Below, in pieces: positions 47,738 to 56,840 of a stretch of DNA of 64,000 nt (positions are counted from its first letter, which is position 1; each line of letters opens with the position of its first letter). Source of the DNA: Mycobacterium sp. BK086. Lineage in GTDB: Bacteria; Actinomycetota; Actinomycetes; Mycobacteriales; Mycobacteriaceae. The stretch lies in the NCBI GenBank assembly GCA_004362315.1, contig SNWL01000003.1, positions 1,984,001 to 2,048,000 of the forward strand, read 5' to 3'. The position numbers were made by a program, and so were the translations under genes. The notes under the pieces are model-generated. The model worked only from the letters and a program-made list of their open reading frames with translations. It was not told where the DNA came from and did no database searches.

Positions 47738-48322
47738 ATGGTTCGCGACGATTGGATCCTCGGCGGCGACCGTTCCGCGGCGGCGGCGGATCGCATCTAC
47801 GCGGCGGCCACCGAGCTCGTGATCCGGGACGGGCTGGACGCTCTCGACATCGACGCCCTGGCGGCGAGGGTGCACTGCTCACGGGCGACGGTCTACCGCC
47901 ATGCCGGGGGCAAGGCAGCGATCCGCGATGCCGTACTGACGCGTCTGGCGGCGGCCATCATCGACAAAGTGCGGAGGGCTGTCGACGGGCTCACCGGCTC
48001 GGAACGCGTGATCGTCGCAATCACGGTGGCGCTGAGAGAGATCCGATCCGATCCATTACGCCGCCTGATGTTCACTGCAGGCAACCTGCCGGAGGTCAAG
48101 GAGCTGCATTCCTCGCCGGTGCTCGCTCACCTGGCCGCCGAACTCACCGGCATCACCGACGACGATCCCCAAGCGGCACAGTGGATCGTGCGCGTCGTCG
48201 TCTCGCTGGCCTACTCGCCCATCGCGAATGTTCGCGACGAACGAGAAGTGCTGGCGCGCTTCGTCGCACCCGCGTTCGACAGGACCGCCAGCACCGAGAC
48301 GACGAAGCAAGCCACCGTGTAG
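47738..48322 (+). CDS. TetR-family transcriptional regulator
   Basis: 194 aa from ATG 47738. Helix-turn-helix ALDIDALAARVHCSRATVYRHAGGKAAIRDA, then an all-helical ligand domain. Likely represses the divergent P450. Its last 112 bp are antisense to the 3' part of the convergent membrane protein gene, an unusually long coding overlap; both frames look genuine. Confidence 0.85.
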   Translation: MVRDDWILGGDRSAAAADRIYAAATELVIRDGLDALDIDALAARVHCSRATVYRHAGGKAAIRDAVLTRLAAAIIDKVRRAVDGLTGSERVIVAITVALREIRSDPLRRLMFTAGNLPEVKELHSSPVLAHLAAELTGITDDDPQAAQWIVRVVVSLAYSPIANVRDEREVLARFVAPAFDRTASTETTKQATV

Positions 48323-49338
48323 AGCAGGCTGCCTGTCGGAGTTCCATCGGCCGTGACGCCGTTCGTCGCCGCGAAATAGTCGGCGAGGGCGCTGATCCAC
48401 AGTGCGCCCAGGACAACCAGATAGATCGGCCCGAAGATGCGGACGAACTCGCTGGGTTCTCGATCGTCGCGGGAACCCAGCCATTGCCGGGCCAGAACCG
48501 GGACGGCGATCACGGCGACGACCACCAACTCGACCGCGAACACTATCGCCTGCGCCGTCGTGTTGGGTTTGTCGCCGCCGAACAGCGACGTGGGAATGCT
48601 CAGGATCGCCAACCCCAGTGGCACAAGGAAACCCGCGAGCAGGGTCCGCCAGGTCAGCGACCATCCGGTCGAACGCTTCCGGCCCACCAGCAGCATCACC
48701 AGCAAGGTCACCACGATCGGGCCGAGCGTGGCGAAGATGAACACGCTGGTCATCGGCACCGAGGTGAACAGCGGATGGTTGATCGGATTGTCGGTATTCC
48801 ACGCCCACCAGCGCAGCTGCGGCCCCAGTTGATCGAATACCTCGTAGAGGCAGTGGTGCACGAAGCCGACGCAGATGGCGCCGACGACCACCCCGCGGTC
48901 CCTGAAGATCCCGAGGCTGCGCACGATTTCGTAGGCGAGTGTCACAACGGCCGGATACAGCGCGACGATGTAGAGCGGCAACCGGTCGAACAGAAACCCC
49001 ACCGTGAAGACGTTGTGCGCGAACACAACTCCGAGTTGGTCCTGGATGCCGAAGATGTTGGGAAAGTACAGTGGGATCTCGATCACGAACAGATAGACCA
49101 CCGTCGCGCACCACAGCGCCAGGTTGATCGGGTCACCGTGTCGTCTCAGGCGACGGATCGAGTAGATCAGTGCGAGAACCGCACCCGTCACCATCATCAG
49201 TTCCAGAACCGGCAGCGTCCAGTTGCTCAGCGCCAACGGGTTGCGCAGGTGGATGAAGGCCGGCGCATTCTGGCAGGTGAAATCACCGAGAGGTCGGGCG
49301 ATTGCGTCGAATGCGGCGGTGCACTGTTCGGCCATCAT
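48211..49338 (-). CDS. polytopic membrane protein, unknown function
   Basis: 375 aa, about eight or nine TM helices. The first 30 residues contain FTCQNAPAF before the first helix; acidic and His residues lie near membrane faces (VHHCLYEVFDQLG, WWAWNTDNPINHPLF). No family recognised with confidence; an AveC-like or carotenoid-enzyme-like fold was considered but not supported. The ATG overlaps the stop of the PF10118 gene (ATGA), so the two are co-translated and probably functionally linked. Confidence 0.7.
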   Translation of the reverse strand: MMAEQCTAAFDAIARPLGDFTCQNAPAFIHLRNPLALSNWTLPVLELMMVTGAVLALIYSIRRLRRHGDPINLALWCATVVYLFVIEIPLYFPNIFGIQDQLGVVFAHNVFTVGFLFDRLPLYIVALYPAVVTLAYEIVRSLGIFRDRGVVVGAICVGFVHHCLYEVFDQLGPQLRWWAWNTDNPINHPLFTSVPMTSVFIFATLGPIVVTLLVMLLVGRKRSTGWSLTWRTLLAGFLVPLGLAILSIPTSLFGGDKPNTTAQAIVFAVELVVVAVIAVPVLARQWLGSRDDREPSEFVRIFGPIYLVVLGALWISALADYFAATNGVTADGTPTGSLLYTVACFVVSVLAVLSNAGATKRASTSRSSRTFAMGE

Positions 49339-50252
49339 GCTCCTGGTGCGACGGGTTGGCTTGTGTACCAGCGGGTTATGTCATCGCCGGCTTTCCAGCG
49401 AGCAAACCACCGGTCGGCGAATTCGGGCAGCCTGTCATTGGCCGGATCGTGAAAAGGTGTCTGGCTCATCAATACCCGGCCGGCCGACACGAGACGTTCA
49501 CGGCGCGGGACAGTCGCGAACGCGTTCGGTGTCGACGCCTGGCGCCGGGCCAGCCGTTGCTTCACTGCTTGGCGCATACTGAACGCCGGCAGGAAGGTGC
49601 GGGCATCGACCTTCCGATCCTCCTCGGGCACATGCTCGTTCACGCCCTCGGCGATGATCCGCGCCACGCTCAAGAGATGACGGACCACGGCAGGGAGCGC
49701 CCTGATCCGGTACCAGCTGTCGCCGATGGCGGCGTTGTACACCACCAGCGCCGAACTGCGATGCTCGACTTCTTCGACGAAGTGCCACAGCAGCAGCGAC
49801 GCCACCCGGTCGTCGCCGGGACGGAACAGCGTCTCCTCGTTGTCGAGCATCATCTTGAAACTCGGCGTGAAGGTGGCTTCGAGATCGGCGATGTAGGCCA
49901 GCCGGAACTTCAACGGCGTGGTCTTGGTGACGTGGTCGAAGCTGGCGCATGCGGCGTCCAGGGTCTGCGCCAAACCCGGGTAGCGACGAATCAGGGCGCT
50001 GACATGCTTGCGGTGGGTGCTGGAATGCTGGGCCTCCTGACGCAGGAACGCCGTTGCCTCGGCGGCGGCCTCCGGATCGGTGATCAGCGGCGCGGCCTCC
50101 TGGACGGCAGCCACGATCATCTGCTCGAAGCAGATCGCGATGATCGACGTCGCATTCATGAAGAACGAGAACTGCGGGTTGTCCGGATTCCACTCCCACG
50201 GCACGTCGTCGGTGAAATCGAACTTGGGCCGCCGGACCTCCAGGGCCGTCAT
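49335..50252 (-). CDS. PF10118-type putative metal-dependent hydrolase (diiron-like helical protein)
   Basis: 305 aa, mostly helical. Two ExxH motifs, RQEAQHSSTH (about residues 71-80) and VEEVEHRSS (about 156-164), plus other Glu/His along the helices, resemble a ferritin-like carboxylate-bridged metal site, although the family is annotated as a predicted hydrolase. Coupled by ATGA overlap to a membrane protein and divergent from a TetR gene whose palindromic operator sits between. Confidence 0.75.
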   Translation of the reverse strand: MTALEVRRPKFDFTDDVPWEWNPDNPQFSFFMNATSIIAICFEQMIVAAVQEAAPLITDPEAAAEATAFLRQEAQHSSTHRKHVSALIRRYPGLAQTLDAACASFDHVTKTTPLKFRLAYIADLEATFTPSFKMMLDNEETLFRPGDDRVASLLLWHFVEEVEHRSSALVVYNAAIGDSWYRIRALPAVVRHLLSVARIIAEGVNEHVPEEDRKVDARTFLPAFSMRQAVKQRLARRQASTPNAFATVPRRERLVSAGRVLMSQTPFHDPANDRLPEFADRWFARWKAGDDITRWYTSQPVAPGA

Positions 50253-50342: not shown

Positions 50343-50960
50343 ATGGCACGAAAGGGTTGGGGCGGTTCACCGCCCGCCGACGACGCGGAGGCGCGCAAGC
50401 GGATCATCGACGCCGCCCTGCGCCTGGTCGACCGCCGCGGAGCCGCGCAGACCACCGTGCTCGACATCGCCGACGAGCTGGGCATCACCCGGCGCACCGT
50501 GTACCGCTACTTCGCCGGAACCGACGAGCTGTTCGCCGCCGCCGCCGAGGCGGCGCTCGGAAGCTTCGTCACCCAGATCGACCGGGTCGTCGCGGACTTG
50601 GACGTCGCCAGCCAGCTCATCGAGGTCGTCGCCTACATCATCGAGCGGCTCCCGCAGGAGCCGCAGCTCGCGCTGCTGCTGGCCAACGACCGCTCCAACA
50701 TGTTCAGCCGGGCGATGCTCACCGCCGACGTGATCGCGCGCTGCCGGACCGTGCTCCACCACGCGCAGATCGACTGGGATCAACTCGGCTTCGACGATCA
50801 GATGATCGACGAACTGATCGAGCTCCTCCTGCGGACGATCCAGTCGATGGTCATCGCGCCGCTCGACCCGCCACGGACCGGCACGGAATTGCGTGCATAC
50901 CTGCACCGCTGGCTCGGCCCGGCGCTTGCGCCGCGAGCCGCTACCGAGTCGGCTGGCTGA
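50343..50960 (+). CDS. TetR-family transcriptional regulator
   Basis: 205 aa from ATG 50343 (MARKGWGG). HTH TTVLDIADELGITRRTVYRYFAGTDELFAAA. Divergent from the PF10118/membrane protein pair, with an 8-7-8 palindrome between, so the likely repressor of that pair. GGAGGGAAG lies 14-20 bases before the ATG. The 3' end overlaps the convergent DUF4239 gene by 20 bp. Confidence 0.88.
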   Translation: MARKGWGGSPPADDAEARKRIIDAALRLVDRRGAAQTTVLDIADELGITRRTVYRYFAGTDELFAAAAEAALGSFVTQIDRVVADLDVASQLIEVVAYIIERLPQEPQLALLLANDRSNMFSRAMLTADVIARCRTVLHHAQIDWDQLGFDDQMIDELIELLLRTIQSMVIAPLDPPRTGTELRAYLHRWLGPALAPRAATESAG

Positions 50961-51729
50961 GAAACGACACCACCTCGTAGAGGGGATCGGGCGTCACAGA
51001 GACTCCGCCGATGAACGGATGGGACAGCTCGAGGATGAGGAACAGATTGGTCGCGACGATCAACCCCACGATGGCCACCATCGGGTAGTGCATCCCGGGC
51101 TTCTCGACTCCGTAGACGACGACTGTCCCCAGCACCATGGCACTGGTGAGGAAGATGACCGCCCACAACGGCCACGGCGGCCCGGTGTCTTCGCGCGCGG
51201 TCAACAGCCGCACCGAGCGTGCCTGACTTATCTTGTCCAGGTTGGCATATGACGTTGCCAAGATGCTCTTCTGACCATCGGCCGTCGCATTCGCCTGACG
51301 GTAGGCCGCTGACAGCTGAGCCAGCGCGGCGTCAGCCTCTGGCGAACGGATGCCGCCACTGTCCCACTCGGTGATGGCGGCCTTCTCGTAGGCAACCAGA
51401 CTCTGTCTGATGCGATCCGCATCCGCTTGCGCGAAAATATCTAGATCCCTTGCCATTTCGATCGCTGCCGCACCCTCGGCCCGAGCGTTCGCGTCGGCTG
51501 TGTTGATCTCCCCCCACATCGACGAGACGACGAAGCCGATGAAGAAGGCGTAGATGAAGCCGATGAAACTGTAGGTGAATTTGGTGACGTCGTTGTGTTC
51601 GTCCCGGGTCAGGGCGGGGAACCGGCGCCGAACCCATGCCACCAGAAGCATCGCGCCGCCGGCGATGACCACGATCAGAGCGACCAGCAACAGCCCGGGC
51701 GGGATCGTGCTCACCAGCCATCCGCTCAT
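50941..51729 (-). CDS. DUF4239 membrane protein
   Basis: 262 aa. Two N-terminal TM helices (IPPGLLLVALIVVIAGGAMLLVAWV and FTYSFIGFIYAFFIGFVVSSMW), a long helical soluble middle, and two C-terminal TM helices, the arrangement of the bestrophin-like DUF4239 family. Possibly an ion channel. Ends the minus-strand run of membrane genes; 68 bp after the previous gene, so membership in that operon is uncertain. Confidence 0.75.
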   Translation of the reverse strand: MSGWLVSTIPPGLLLVALIVVIAGGAMLLVAWVRRRFPALTRDEHNDVTKFTYSFIGFIYAFFIGFVVSSMWGEINTADANARAEGAAAIEMARDLDIFAQADADRIRQSLVAYEKAAITEWDSGGIRSPEADAALAQLSAAYRQANATADGQKSILATSYANLDKISQARSVRLLTAREDTGPPWPLWAVIFLTSAMVLGTVVVYGVEKPGMHYPMVAIVGLIVATNLFLILELSHPFIGGVSVTPDPLYEVVSFLSQPTR

Positions 51730-51797
51730 GCCTCGACTCTATGGGGCCACGCGCGGACCTTCAGCCGATTGGGGCACCGAGGGTTGCTTGTCGACGG

Positions 51798-52202
51798 TCA
51801 GTGCCCGCCCTGCTGTGCTTGACGCGCGATGCGTTCGTCGTGGATGCGGACCAGTTCACGGAAACCGATGCGGTGGTATTTCGGAACCGGCTGAATGCCC
51901 CACTGGTCCTGCGCGGTGTCCTTACCCGCGGCTCCCTCGGGTGGGCCCAGCGGCGGGTACGGGTACTTGCACTCCATCGTGTCGTCGGAGTAGCGCACCT
52001 TCAGCAGCTCACTGCAGATCTCGGTGAGGCTGAGTGTCGGATACCCGTAGTACACCGCCATGAACGGCAGCGTGAAGGCGCCCTCGACGACCAGCGCGAC
52101 CAGGCAGACCAAGACCGCGCGTTTGATCCACTTGTGCATCCGTGCGTAATACGGGGTGGTGCCCGGCGGCAGGTCCTCGATCTTCTCTTCGGTGGTTGTC
52201 AC
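51798..52202 (-). CDS. single-TM membrane protein of the duplicated-membrane-protein cluster
   Basis: 134 aa from GTG 52202, chosen because GAAGGGA lies five bases upstream; a longer frame would cover the previous gene's stop. One TM helix at about residues 28-48 ([25 protein letters not shown]), then about 85 residues outside, with two Cys ([17 protein letters not shown]) that could pair. The N-terminus is short and acidic. No family recognised. 10 bp after the polytopic protein. Confidence 0.7.
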
Positions 52203-52212
52203 GGGAATCCCT

Positions 52213-52572
52213 TCAGTCGGAGAAGATTTCACGGTTGACCGTGTGCAGATACGGGATGGCCAGGAACGGGGTGATGTAGAAGATGTCGTAGAGCCACCAG
52301 CCGATCACCGGCAGGACGACCCCCGCGTAGCGGACATCGGCGTACATCGTCATGTTGAACACGTAGCCGCACCAGATGACCAGACCCATCCAGCAGGTCA
52401 CGATCATCCACTGATGCCCCCACCGCTTCATCTGCAAGAACCCGATCGCGGCGGCGCAGCGCATCGCGAAGACGGTGAGAATCAGCCCCGCGACCCAAGC
52501 CTTTTCGCCAGGGCCGGCCGCGCCGCCGATCCACAGTTCGTTGTAGTGCCAGAAGTAGCCGGCGTCGAACAT
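52213..52572. repeat. direct repeat (copy 1) of 3' half of duplicated membrane gene
   Basis: About 360 bp of clear nucleotide similarity to 55490-55849 in the same orientation, 3.3 kb apart, with long runs identical. Recombination between copies would delete the ATPase, VWA and both small genes. Confidence 0.75.
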
Positions 52573-52914
52573 CGCACCCCAGCCCACCATCAGCACCCGG
52601 TTGATCAGGGTGTGATTGGCCACCAGATCCAGCGCCCAGCCCAGGCTGTTGAGCGCACCGTCGATCAGCACGAGATAGCCGATCAGCGTGACGATCATCG
52701 GCCGGACCGACAATCCGGCCCGTAATGCCTGGCGCTGCAGCCAGACTCCGCGCATGAAGATCGGAAACCCGATGAGGCCGGGTGCCCACATCCCCATCAG
52801 GGCGGCACCGACGATCATCCACTTGTCGGCGCGACGCTGCGCAAGCCGCGACTGCTCGTGGTGAACCTCGAGTCCGACCGGACCGTCGGTGCGGCTGATC
52901 GGGGTCGCGGTCAC
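52213..52914 (-). CDS. polytopic membrane protein A of unknown system (paralogue of 55490-56185)
   Basis: 233 aa from GTG 52914, whose GTGA overlaps the stop of the 43-aa gene. About five or six TM helices. Polar residues recur in or next to helices: [61 protein letters not shown]; such Asp/His/Glu placement would suit a metal or quinone site. About the last 120 residues are nearly identical to protein B. Sits just downstream of a MoxR ATPase/VWA pair that may mature it. Function unknown. Confidence 0.75.
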
Positions 52915-53042
52915 AAATCCCACCAGCCCCGCGCGAAGGACATGTAGAGCTGGATTCCGAACATCGTCAGCAGGTAGCCGTAGATGACGATCTGCAAGAT
53001 GATGAGTGCCCGCTTGCGCTTTCGTTCCTTTTGATCGACCAC
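52911..53042 (-). CDS. 43-aa single-TM protein
   Basis: GTG start at 53042 with GGAAGGG about nine bases upstream. A strongly basic N-terminus (KERKRKRA) followed by one TM helix (LIILQIVIYGYLLTMFGIQLYM) and WWDL at the end. Lies between the MoxR ATPase (14 bp) and protein A (overlap GTGA). Size and place suggest a small accessory subunit, comparable in concept to CydX-type peptides. Confidence 0.65.
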   Translation of the reverse strand: MVDQKERKRKRALIILQIVIYGYLLTMFGIQLYMSFARGWWDL

Positions 53043-53055
53043 GTGTCCACCCTTC

Positions 53056-53841
53056 CTAGAGATCCGCGGCAGCCAAACAGGCCGCCGCCACTTCACGTAA
53101 CCCGTCGCTTATCGCGCCGTCGGTGCTCAGCGGCGCCAGAATGCACGCGTCGGCGGCCTCCAATTCCGTTGCCCCCGCTGCGATCAATTGCGCCGCGGTG
53201 ACCAGCACCCGGGTCGACGGCGGTTCGAAGTGGAACGCCTCGTCGGCCGTGCGGATCGCGACCGCGCACCCGACCAGCCGCCGCGCGGTCGGCAGATCGA
53301 CCCCTGTTTCCGCGACCACCACCTCCGCTTCGCGGTCCGGCGGCAGATAGCCCATCGACAGCGTCGCAAAACGTTGCCGGAACGAGGGTTTGAGCTCCTT
53401 GAGTGAACTGCGGTAGGCAGGGTTGTAGGAGCACACCAGCATGAACTCGTCCGGTGCGCGCACGACCTCGCCGGCCCGGTCGAGATAGAGGGTGCGGCGA
53501 TGGTCGGTCAGCGAGTGCAGCACCGCCAGCGAATCGTGGCGGGCTTCGACGACTTCGTCCAGATAGCAGATCGCGCCGTCCTTCACCGCCCGGGTGAGCG
53601 GGCCGTCCGTCCACACGACGTCCCCGCCGGTCACCATGAACCGGCCGACGAGGTCCGAACTGGTCAGGTCGTCGTGGCAACTGATGGTGACGACCGGCCG
53701 GCCCAGCAGCAGCCCCATGTGCTCGACCAATCTGGTCTTGCCGCAGCCGGTCGGTCCGGTCAGCATGACCGGGATGCGCTGGCCGAACGCCTGCTCGAAC
53801 AATTTGACTTCGTTGCCGAAGGCGAAATAGGTCTCTGTCAT
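53056..53841 (-). CDS. MoxR-type AAA+ ATPase, CbbQ/NirQ/NorQ group
   Basis: 261 aa. Walker A GPTGCGKT (29-36), Walker B ICYLDEVVEA, sensor-1 type LVCSYNPAYRSS and an Arg-rich C-terminal lid. In this group the ATPase works with a VWA protein to activate metal enzymes (NorBC nitric oxide reductase, form I/II Rubisco). The ATG overlaps the VWA stop (ATGA), so the two are stoichiometrically coupled. No norB, cbbL or similar client is nearby; the client is probably one of the adjacent membrane proteins. Confidence 0.9.
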   Translation of the reverse strand: MTETYFAFGNEVKLFEQAFGQRIPVMLTGPTGCGKTRLVEHMGLLLGRPVVTISCHDDLTSSDLVGRFMVTGGDVVWTDGPLTRAVKDGAICYLDEVVEARHDSLAVLHSLTDHRRTLYLDRAGEVVRAPDEFMLVCSYNPAYRSSLKELKPSFRQRFATLSMGYLPPDREAEVVVAETGVDLPTARRLVGCAVAIRTADEAFHFEPPSTRVLVTAAQLIAAGATELEAADACILAPLSTDGAISDGLREVAAACLAAADL

Positions 53842-55367
53842 GTCGACACCAGCTCTCGATGGACGTGCGCCAGCACACGCGGGAGTTCATCCACTCGCCG
53901 GATACGTTGCGAGCGGCGGGATCCGAAGACCTCGGGCAATGGATCCACGCGGGCCGGACCGACGCCGACGTAGTAGACGGAAACCCCGGCGTCGTTGGCC
54001 TCCTCCACGGCATGCGCCGTGTCGGCCCATGCGTAACGGCCCTCGTATCCCTCGTCGGAGATCAGCCCGTCGCCCACGACGATGAGCAGCCGCCGCTCGG
54101 AGGGCTGGGCCAGCAGCCGACTCGTCAGATGCCGCAGCGGCGCCCCCAGCCGGGTGTAGCCGCCGGTTTCCAGGCCGAGCTTGCTGGGCGGAATGAACCG
54201 CGGGTCGTCGAAGTCCTTGAGGCAGCGCACTTCTACTCGGTGGCGGGTGTTGCCGGTGAAGACGAACACCCCGTGGCGCTCCTTGGCGAGGTTCATCGCC
54301 CGCGACAGCGCATCGGCGCAGGCCAGCTCCAAGCGGAAGATCCGGCCGCCGTGGGTGCCCAGCGACGAGCTGCCGTCCAGTAATAGCGCAGTGGTGACGT
54401 CCCGGCTGACCGGCAACAGCCCGCGGAAGATCCGCGGTTCGGTCGCCTCGCCGGTGGCCATGTCGATGTAGTGCCCGACGTACCGTTCGACGTCGATGTC
54501 CGAGCCGTCTTCGAGGCGGCTCTTCATGGCCCGGTGGGTGTGTTCTTCGAACCACGCCCGCAGGTCGACCTGGCTCGATCCGCTCTGGCCTCGACGGTCG
54601 TAAGAACGTTCCAGCACCGCAACGTGATTGGGTATGAACTTCTTGGTCCACGCGTTCCATTCCGGGTACGGGATACCGGGACGGTGATCGGGCGTGATGT
54701 CCAGGTCGTTGTCCTGCGGCCGGCTGGGTGGCGGGAGATTGGAATTGCGGACGCCACCGTCGCCGCCGACCGGCACCGAGTAGGGCCGCGGCATGCGCTT
54801 CTGTGTCGTCGTCCACGGCATCCGCCCGAACGTGCGGCGCAATCGCTCGTTCAGCCCCGTTGGCGCAGTGTGGGCCACCGGGAGCACACCCAACAACGGA
54901 TCGATACCCAGCTGTTTTTCGTTGCGCGCCAAGCTGATTGCCCTGCCGAGCATCTCTTCGGCGCTAGTCTCCGCAGGCACTACCGCCAGATCGGGCAGGG
55001 CTCGTCGCAGCTCGGCGACCAGACCCGGCCAGCGTGTCGCGATCCAGGCCATGGCCGCGCCCGCCTCGACGAGGGTCAGCGCACGCAGCTCGCGGCTCGA
55101 CAGCTCGTTGAGCCGATAGGTGGTAACCCGCTCCTTGGACGGCGAACACTGCAGTGCGACACCGCATGTGATGCTCCGGCGGGTCCAGCCCCCGACGATC
55201 GCCGGGTACGGGACGTGGACGTGGCTCAGCGTCGCGTTCAGCCCGAAGGAGCGATGTTGGCCGGTGACCAGCCGAACGCCTTCTCGGCGCCCTTCACTCA
55301 GCGCGACGGCAGTGATCGCGCAGCTGCGCTCCAGTGCCAGCGCACCCGCGTCGGACAAGTCAGCCAC
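53838..55367 (-). CDS. VWA-domain protein, NorD/CbbO-like
   Basis: 509 aa. C-terminal von Willebrand A domain with MIDAS LLLDGSSSLGTHGG (DxSxS) near residue 330 and the later Asp in VVGDGLISDEGY. N-terminal 300 residues are the NorD-type helical part. Partner of the MoxR ATPase gene just downstream. A strong case for a metalloenzyme-activation pair; the activated enzyme is not a known one. Starts 6 bp after the 34-aa gene. Confidence 0.87.
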   Translation of the reverse strand: MADLSDAGALALERSCAITAVALSEGRREGVRLVTGQHRSFGLNATLSHVHVPYPAIVGGWTRRSITCGVALQCSPSKERVTTYRLNELSSRELRALTLVEAGAAMAWIATRWPGLVAELRRALPDLAVVPAETSAEEMLGRAISLARNEKQLGIDPLLGVLPVAHTAPTGLNERLRRTFGRMPWTTTQKRMPRPYSVPVGGDGGVRNSNLPPPSRPQDNDLDITPDHRPGIPYPEWNAWTKKFIPNHVAVLERSYDRRGQSGSSQVDLRAWFEEHTHRAMKSRLEDGSDIDVERYVGHYIDMATGEATEPRIFRGLLPVSRDVTTALLLDGSSSLGTHGGRIFRLELACADALSRAMNLAKERHGVFVFTGNTRHRVEVRCLKDFDDPRFIPPSKLGLETGGYTRLGAPLRHLTSRLLAQPSERRLLIVVGDGLISDEGYEGRYAWADTAHAVEEANDAGVSVYYVGVGPARVDPLPEVFGSRRSQRIRRVDELPRVLAHVHRELVST

Positions 55368-55373
55368 GGCGAA

Positions 55374-55478
55374 TCAGAACGTACCGATGTTGGAGAACAA
55401 CCAGTACCAGAACGCGATGATCAGAATCGTGCCGCCCCATGCGGCGACGTATCGAAGGATCTCCCAGAGATATCCCAT
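55374..55478 (-). CDS. 34-aa single-TM protein
   Basis: ATG 55478, preceded seven bases away by AAAGGGG. Sequence opens MGYLWEILRYVAAWGG and continues into one aromatic-rich TM helix ending IGTF. It fits exactly between protein B (11 bp) and the VWA gene (6 bp), mirroring the 43-aa gene beside protein A. Too short for most annotation pipelines. Confidence 0.6.
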   Translation of the reverse strand: MGYLWEILRYVAAWGGTILIIAFWYWLFSNIGTF

Positions 55479-55489
55479 CAACTGCCCCT

Positions 55490-55849
55490 TTAGTCGGAGA
55501 AGATTTCGCGGTTGACCGTGTGCAGATACGGGATCGCGAGGAACGGCGTGATGTAGAAGATGTCGTAGAGCCACCAGCCGACGACCGGCAACACCACACC
55601 GGCAAAACGGACGTCGGCGTACATCGTCATGTTGAACACGTAGCCGCACCAGATGACCACACCCATCCAGCAGGTCACGATCATCCACTGATGCCCCCAC
55701 CGCTTCATCTGCAGAAAGCCGATCGCAGCCGCGATGCGCATGGTGAAGACGGTGAAGATCAGGCCGATTTCCCAGCCCTTCTCGCCGGGCCCGGCCGCAC
55801 CACCGATCCACAATTCGTTGAAGTGCCAGAAGTAACCGGCGTCGAACAT
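55490..55849. repeat. direct repeat (copy 2) of 3' half of duplicated membrane gene
   Basis: Same orientation and strong similarity to 52213-52572. The identity is highest toward the 3' end, which could reflect recent gene conversion. Confidence 0.75.
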
Positions 55850-56185
55850 GTTGCCCCAGCCGGTCAGCAGTACCCGGGCCAGCAGAGTGTGGTTACCGAC
55901 CATGTCCAGCGCCCACCCGACCGCATTGATGGCGGCGTCGATGATCACCAGATATCCGAGCAGCGTGACCAGCATCGGCCGCACTGTCAGGCCGTTGCGC
56001 TGCGCGCGGCGCAGCAGCCACACGCCGCGCAGAAACAGCGGCAGGCCGAAGATCCCGAGGGCGGCCGACCCGATGAGAATGCTGCCGGCGATCAGCCAGC
56101 GGTCGGCTTGGCGCTGCGCCAGCCGCGACTCCTCCAGGTGCTCATCAAGTCCGCTGCCAGTAGGTATGGACGAAGCCAAGCTCAC
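55490..56185 (-). CDS. polytopic membrane protein B of unknown system (paralogue of 52213-52914)
   Basis: 231 aa, same topology and conserved Asp/His/Trp positions as protein A ([46 protein letters not shown]); the N-terminal third has diverged. GTG 56185 is seven bases after a TATAGT -10 box that lies inside a 16-bp palindrome, predicting a leaderless, TetR-repressed transcript. First gene of the operon B - 34 aa - VWA - ATPase - 43 aa - A - 134 aa. Confidence 0.78.
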   Translation of the reverse strand: MSLASSIPTGSGLDEHLEESRLAQRQADRWLIAGSILIGSAALGIFGLPLFLRGVWLLRRAQRNGLTVRPMLVTLLGYLVIIDAAINAVGWALDMVGNHTLLARVLLTGWGNMFDAGYFWHFNELWIGGAAGPGEKGWEIGLIFTVFTMRIAAAIGFLQMKRWGHQWMIVTCWMGVVIWCGYVFNMTMYADVRFAGVVLPVVGWWLYDIFYITPFLAIPYLHTVNREIFSD

Positions 56186-56188
56186 GAA

Positions 56189-56204
56189 ACTGACTATAGT
56201 CAGT
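56189..56204 (-). promoter_or_regulatory. TetR operator overlapping the -10 box of the membrane-protein operon
   Basis: ACTGACTATAGTCAGT, a perfect 16-bp palindrome. On the minus strand it contains TATAGT (56198-56193), a TAnnnT -10 element seven bases before the GTG at 56185. Its core TGACT-N2-AGTCA recurs at 56829-56840. Confidence 0.75.
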
Positions 56205-56208
56205 AAAA

Positions 56209-56811
56209 CTAGTGAGACTCAATACTGCGCAACGACCTCGTCACGTAGTCATCGATCATCTCGCCCTGCGCCGGCCAGGCGTGGGTTGTCGTCAGCAGGG
56301 CATAGAGGCCCAGCAGGAAGAAGACCGCGCTGTTGATCGGAATCACCGTGGGATCAACCTGACCGCGCTGCTGAAGTCGCTCGATCTCGCCGGCAACCGC
56401 GACCACCACCGGATGTTCCTTACTCTCATCGGTCGGCCGGGTCTGCGAGAAGTGCAGTGCGAGAAAGTCTTTGAACAAGACGGCGCCGAGCCGGCGCTCC
56501 AGGCCCATCACCAGACGCACCGCCTCGTGCAGCGTCGATTCGAGGTCATGCTCCGAACCGGCTTGGTAGCGGGCGAATTGCTTGGCGATCCGCTCTTCTT
56601 CGCGACGTTCGAGCTCCAGGAGCACGTGTTCCTTTGTCGGGAAATGAAAGAAGAACGTGCCGTGTGCGACGCCTGCGGCGGCGACGATGGCGCCGACGTC
56701 AGCCGCGGCGATGCCCGACCGCTTGAACTCGGCGATCGCCGCGCCCATGAGTCGCTCTCGGGTCTGAAGCCGCTTGGCCTCACGTGTGGACGTCTTATCT
56801 ACCACCGACAT
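56209..56811 (-). CDS. TetR-family transcriptional regulator of the membrane-protein operon
   Basis: 200 aa from ATG 56811, six bases after a TATTCT -10 box, so probably leaderless. HTH AAADVGAIVAAAGVAHGTFFFHFPTKEHVLLE. Ends 23 bp before the operon's first gene on the same strand. Matching palindromes lie at its own promoter and at the operon's, so it likely represses both until a hydrophobic ligand binds. Confidence 0.87.
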   Translation of the reverse strand: MSVVDKTSTREAKRLQTRERLMGAAIAEFKRSGIAAADVGAIVAAAGVAHGTFFFHFPTKEHVLLELERREEERIAKQFARYQAGSEHDLESTLHEAVRLVMGLERRLGAVLFKDFLALHFSQTRPTDESKEHPVVVAVAGEIERLQQRGQVDPTVIPINSAVFFLLGLYALLTTTHAWPAQGEMIDDYVTRSLRSIESH

Positions 56812-56828
56812 GTGACAAGAATATCCGT

Positions 56829-56840
56829 TGACTTGAGTCA
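56829..56840 (-). promoter_or_regulatory. autoregulatory TetR operator
   Basis: TGACT-TG-AGTCA lies just upstream of the TATTCT -10 box (56823-56818) of the tetR gene; same arms and spacing as the operator at 56191-56202. Confidence 0.7.

Follow-up and report, generated by a model that had tools for sequence, protein, structure and literature searches.

What does a MoxR-type ATPase with its VWA partner serve when the two are encoded among small membrane proteins? The question is raised by a minus-strand operon in a 64,000-nt stretch of the genome of Mycobacterium sp. BK086 (the window), where the pair lies between two related polytopic proteins, A and B, together with three small proteins that each have a single transmembrane (TM) segment, s34, s43 and p134. 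To our knowledge, MoxR/VWA machines have few known clients. Here, A and B are very probably the client of the pair, and as the best explanation of the whole we favour, with moderate confidence, a membrane complex with a dedicated NorQ/NorD-type chaperone in a P450-linked pathway. The operon is widespread in mycobacteria, and no description of it was found in the open-access literature, judged by titles and abstract starts.

The client relation is carried by co-occurrence. Orthologous VWA proteins were defined as those scoring >200 bits, and were found in 31/33 genomes with A/B and in 0/20 without, the latter hand-picked among relatives lacking an A/B match; genomes of both kinds also hold weaker VWA paralogues (about 45-100 bits). 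The lowest-scoring of the 31 (G841, 209 bits) lies directly behind an A homologue and is followed by a MoxR homologue. In one of the two exceptions (G387) the A homologue precedes an AAA domain with a lid, interpreted as FtsH-like but devoid of a protease part, and in the other (G441) A adjoins a P450 gene, with no ATPase in the stretch fetched. Another genome (G409) holds two loci, one FtsH-type and one NorQ/NorD-type. In the two FtsH-type loci, L157:8890-11938 and L158:7730-9688, the distant A homologue is followed by this protease-less, FtsH-like AAA domain in place of the pair, with a gene for a Rieske ferredoxin close by in each. Two further loci, L163:8419-9413 and L164:7938-9313, carry an extra s34-s43-A-p134 set without MoxR/VWA, in genomes (G317 and G289) that have the full cassette (two A/B copies, s34, s43, VWA, MoxR and p134) elsewhere. 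Short hydrophobic open reading frames stand beside A in the distant loci, their assignment to s34, s43 or p134 being partly by eye. Since A retains the small TM genes even in loci that lack the pair or have another ATPase in its place, the mobile unit appears to be A plus the small TM proteins, with the ATPase as an exchangeable servant; combined with the co-occurrence, this suggests that the client complex probably consists of A/B and the three small TM proteins. Homologues of A/B without the pair, whose regular occurrence the earlier note on this DNA had held to count against its proposal, were encountered only as divergent or extra copies (L105, L156, L157/L158 and L163/L164). Rubisco is not a general client, because its large subunit is encoded in only 6/33 A/B-positive genomes, the source genome included (C1:1024055-1024978). 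The earlier statement that no known client is present holds to that extent; no genome-wide search was made for NorB or CoxL.

The features are listed below, keeping the naming of B (55490-56185) and A (52213-52914); conservation refers to 80 loci, the best-ranked of 299 relatives in a scan of GTDB genome contigs, which are related to each other.

56829..56840, upstream of the TetR gene: palindrome TGACTTGAGTCA, putative operator 1 (motif scan; 79/80 relatives)
56209..56811, minus strand: TetR-family regulator, 200 aa (PF00440; homologue >80 bits in 78/80 loci)
56191..56202, between TetR and B: palindrome TGACTATAGTCA, putative operator 2 (motif scan)
55490..56185, minus strand: B, a polytopic protein of 231 aa with six long predicted helices, without a Pfam or NCBIfam match
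55374..55478, minus strand: s34, 34-aa single-TM protein (cassette member by conservation)
53838..55367, minus strand: VWA protein, 509 aa, with a NorD-type VWA domain whose MIDAS motif is intact
53056..53841, minus strand: MoxR AAA+ ATPase, 261 aa, CbbQ/NorQ type (PF07728 and PF08406; Walker motifs conserved)
52911..53042, minus strand: s43, 43-aa single-TM protein with a basic N-terminus (cassette member by conservation)
52213..52914, minus strand: A, a polytopic protein of 233 aa that shares 75% identity with B
51798..52202, minus strand: p134, 134-aa single-TM protein, no family match

From B to p134 the spacings are, in order, 11, 6, -4, 13, -4 and 10 bp (negative values are overlaps), and the gap between TetR and B is 23 bp. 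The start of A is most plausibly the GTG at 52914, where GTGA overlaps the s43 stop by four bases, and a 4-base overlap also joins the MoxR and VWA genes; the tight spacing and these overlaps suggest one translation-coupled operon. A and B are the sole two A/B copies found in the source genome (E 0.001). The p134 protein has a conserved C-terminal part with two Cys, which is absent from its shorter counterparts in distant loci. The earlier note had described a seven-gene run behind a TetR gene with overlaps or gaps under 15 bp, a duplicated polytopic protein and a NorQ/NorD-like pair; all the named genes are present with starts and stops checked, and each element of this description agrees with our results. 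The range it gave, 50941..56811, includes the operon genes and also a bestrophin-like gene (50941-51729; PF14023, 2e-50) 68 bp past p134, probably a local addition, as it is kept in only 4/80 relatives.

The full cassette is present in 78/80 loci; in the other two (L037 and L082), scored as misses, a contig end falls inside it. By their titles the loci are nearly all from Mycobacterium, Mycolicibacterium and Mycolicibacter, with two from Aldersonia. With few exceptions the order is TetR, B-type copy, a second TetR in some loci, s34, VWA, MoxR, s43, A-type copy and p134, and in L060 the B-type copy sits apart, facing the remaining genes. In overlapping genome samples, A/B were found in 14/151 genomes of the family, 25/394 of the class (one of them, G638, a weak match at 5.4e-4) and 10/396 of the phylum (one, G938, borderline at 0.0098). 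Among plasmids, a single record carries an A homologue (M. branderi, L105), and none of the 30 viral stretches that matched a pattern encodes a relative. In a tree of 32 rows the mycobacterial copies form two sister clades, one of upstream (B-type) and one of downstream (A-type) copies; each is supported at 100/99, and the two are nested within single-copy lineages, the deepest part of the tree being unsure owing to long branches. Two adjacent copies in G031 represent a separate duplication. One M. asiaticum genome encodes a further MoxR/VWA pair (50% and 28%, respectively) close to its cassette (L061:13497-15829).

By sequence, the MoxR and VWA proteins are a NorQ/NorD-type pair. The ATPase matches AAA_5 (PF07728, 3.5e-36) and CbbQ_C (PF08406, 4e-21), its best relative among PDB sequences is NorQ (4.9e-77), and the Walker motifs GPTGCGKT and CYLDE are conserved across relatives. 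The C-terminal VWA domain (PF00092, 4.9e-5) has a MIDAS motif, DxSxS...T...D, that is likewise conserved, and its best match is NorD (6.7e-32) over residues 228-507, residues 1-227 being unaligned in the best-scoring stretch. NorQ and NorD are required for insertion of non-haem iron into NO reductase through ATP-driven remodelling, as stated in the available portions of PMC9976466 and PMC13036017.

Eleven residues of A/B are invariant in 42/42 aligned sequences: R69, D83, N87, W91, D115, Y118, E135, W173, W179, R193 and W205. The plasmid homologue L105, outside the 42, keeps all of them except Y118. A carboxylate metal site is a possible reading of the sequences.

The palindrome TGACTNNAGTCA stands on both sides of the TetR gene and recurs in 79/80 loci, with 144 sites in 1.29 Mb, of which 142 lie no more than 330 bp upstream of a gene for TetR, A/B or s34. 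A motif test covered 18 genomes: the 12 that carry the cassette gave 34 sites, against 14 for a reversed-pattern control, and the six that lack it gave one, against 9 for the control. The whole 6.93-Mb source genome has five sites; a third one, besides the two at the TetR gene, is found 36 bp ahead of the start codon (ATG) of a P450 gene (PF00067; C1 490 kb, L201:8468-9682), about 1.5 Mb from the cassette; 62-65% homologues of this P450 adjoin the cassette in some relatives. More sites occur in G052 and G099 (L210 and L205, around 1501), beside genes for TetR paralogues (55-58%) and a divergent unknown membrane protein. The TetR protein probably represses the operon through this putative operator. 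Neither TGACT nor AGTCA occurs in the main text of PMC4482099, as far as that text was available.

The neighbouring genes point to the catabolism of a hydrophobic compound. Counts of their clusters come from a rough gene caller based on codon-position GC and are lower bounds, with one member per cluster checked by Pfam. Dehydrogenases of the DapB/DAP_DH_C type form clusters in at least 52, 50 and 21 of the 80 loci (the member checked for the 50-locus cluster fell below Pfam cut-offs), short-chain dehydrogenases/reductases (SDRs) in at least 33 and 22, an AMP-binding enzyme in at least 29, and P450s in at least 28, 18, 17 and 9; together with the Rieske genes mentioned above, these clusters are the basis for the pathway proposed. 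A P450 scoring >60 bits is found in 70/80 loci, to be compared with 91 PF00067 matches, some being fragments of one gene, in the 6.93 Mb of the source genome. The nearby P450s and aldehyde dehydrogenases (ALDHs) of the window, which the earlier note had taken as feeders of the system, are not conserved parts of it (ALDH1 1/80, ALDH2 1/80, P450_1 3/80 and P450_2 0/80), and the distant palindrome-bearing P450 is a better-supported partner than they are. At 48211-50252 a DUF7802 polytopic protein gene overlaps a PF10118 'metal-dependent hydrolase' gene with a weak ferritin-like signal, possibly a second membrane/metal pair; neither is kept with the cassette (0/80 loci each).

These data suggest a model in which the six-helix proteins B and A would assemble with s34, s43 and p134 into a membrane complex, while the TetR protein would hold the operon off via TGACTNNAGTCA. 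The MoxR ring with its VWA adaptor, as a dedicated chaperone, would dock on the assembled complex and, using ATP, would make the active site competent by opening or twisting the complex, probably through the placement of a metal ion. Asp83, Asn87, Asp115 and Glu135 are the predicted membrane active site. The active complex would then act inside the membrane on a hydrophobic substrate, in a catabolic pathway that may include a P450, SDRs, DapB/DAP_DH-like dehydrogenases and AMP-binding enzymes of the acyl-CoA ligase type. The parts of the model differ in strength. The gene set with its conservation, the identity of the pair, the co-occurrence, the conserved palindrome and the predicted fold are computational results; complex formation, the client relation, repression by TetR, the active site, the metal and the substrate class are inferred from them. 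The complex is probably an enzyme, one that likely works in the membrane as part of a catabolic pathway linked to P450; a bound metal is about as likely as not, and a sterol- or terpenoid-like substrate is doubtful. Unlikely as it is, the most far-reaching form would be a new class of intramembrane metalloenzyme with an EBP-like fold, in which a metal at Asp83/Asn87/Asp115/Glu135 is installed by a NorQ/NorD machine into a five-protein complex with micro-subunits, the loader being swapped for an FtsH-like ATPase in some lineages.

Several observations weigh against this model. No His is invariant in A/B (H99 41/42, H121 37/42, H165 36/42, H222 39/42), and CbbQ/CbbO-type pairs are thought to remodel their targets, not to insert metal, according to the part of PMC12657314 at hand. 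Around the divergent homologues L105 and L156 the stretch seen contains neither ATPase; not every member of the family, then, depends on the pair. With regard to the palindrome, its count in the window is not above that of shuffled sequences (21/100 reach it), two of the five genomic sites have no obvious link, and the distant P450 with a palindrome was seen in the source genome only. Proximity of P450s is a weak argument by itself, because they are very abundant in such genomes.

Of the other explanations, the one that survives best, still rather improbable, is that A and B are metal-free, EBP-like isomerases that use their invariant acids to add protons to, and remove them from, a hydrophobic polycyclic substrate, the pair only assembling or repairing the complex as CbbQ/CbbO do for Rubisco. 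The EBP/EXPERA superfamily comprises sterol delta8-delta7 isomerase and the sigma-2 receptor/TMEM97. The likeness is one of predicted fold, the sterol isomerase EBP ranking first for two models. EBP has acidic residues at positions 80 and 108 (PMC4263179), for which a manual register gives Asn87 and Asp115 in A/B. The differences are an extra N-terminal helix in A/B, the ATPase genes alongside them and the absence of sequence-profile support. Searches of A/B or their alignments against Pfam, NCBIfam and PDB sequences gave nothing usable, PF05241 (EBP/EXPERA) did not match A/B in the family searches, and Foldseek alone found nothing at E < 0.001 among PDB or viral structures. As hhalign comparison with two bacterial EBP-family alignments was not significant (probability 0.6% and 1.0%), homology to EBP is unsupported. 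The source genome also encodes a gene of the EBP family (PF05241, C1:961867-962196).

Slightly less credible is a transporter, or a device for uptake or export of a hydrophobic compound, energised or assembled by the ATPase. The small TM subunits, the catabolic gene neighbours and an AAA+ motor exchangeable for an FtsH-like one would suit such a device, but the invariant Asp/Asn/Glu/Trp set suggests a site, none of the Pfam, NCBIfam and PDB-sequence searches matched A/B to a transporter family, and NorQ/NorD are described as maturation chaperones in the sections of PMC9976466 and PMC13036017 available.

The earlier note had itself proposed a metalloenzyme or quinone-linked oxidase or hydroxylase, citing Asp, His and Trp residues near the helices of A/B. 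Asp and Trp are indeed invariant, as are Glu, Asn and Arg; the His part of the claim fell, none of His99, His121, His165 and His222 being invariant. The distant, VWA-associated homologues L159 and L176 lack residues 121, 165 and 222, and a His-based metal site is therefore unlikely. NorB and the haem-copper oxidases have invariant His ligands, which A/B do not show in the 42 sequences. The fold matches listed include no haem-copper or copper monooxygenase structure, and the sole oxidases in the Foldseek list are R2-like at E 3.9 and 5.9, which is not significant. No Rieske homologue was found at 1e-4 in L105, L156, L159, L178, L179 or L180, and no sign of metal, quinone or oxidase activity emerged in the analysis. 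A quinone-linked enzyme with a His/Asp metal site is hence about as improbable as a transporter. That the pair instead serves an unrelated client (Rubisco, CO dehydrogenase or NO reductase) and stands here by chance is very improbable: the source genome does encode Rubisco elsewhere, but the strict VWA-A/B co-occurrence speaks strongly against it, as do the fixed gene order with 4-bp overlaps, the scarcity of Rubisco among A/B-positive genomes (no search covered CO dehydrogenase or NO reductase) and the lower-scoring VWA paralogues in both genome groups.

For the preferred reading, a membrane complex matured by its own NorQ/NorD-type chaperone, strict co-occurrence likely identifies the client, and this client is of a size that can be expressed, which makes the action of MoxR/VWA on a membrane protein testable in a second system. 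Should the complex prove to be an enzyme, P450-linked catabolism in mycobacteria would gain a step in the membrane. Known systems resemble the cassette to different degrees. The CbbQ/CbbO Rubisco activase shares the CbbQ_C domain and a VWA partner, and differs in its client, the cassette operon having no Rubisco gene. MSMEG_0748/MSMEG_0751, of the mycobacterial CO dehydrogenase cluster, are likewise a MoxR/VWA pair proposed to mature a metalloenzyme, with a different gene neighbourhood (a comparison by neighbourhood, from the portion of PMC12657314 available). As for norCBQDEF, no NorB/NorC similarity is seen, because A/B match no Pfam or PDB-sequence family, and the likeness to NorD is limited to residues 228-507 of the VWA protein; the ATPase and the VWA domain are nevertheless close sequence relatives of NorQ and NorD with Walker and MIDAS motifs kept, and in both systems, as far as the available text of PMC13036017 describes, the pair shares its operon with polytopic and small membrane proteins.

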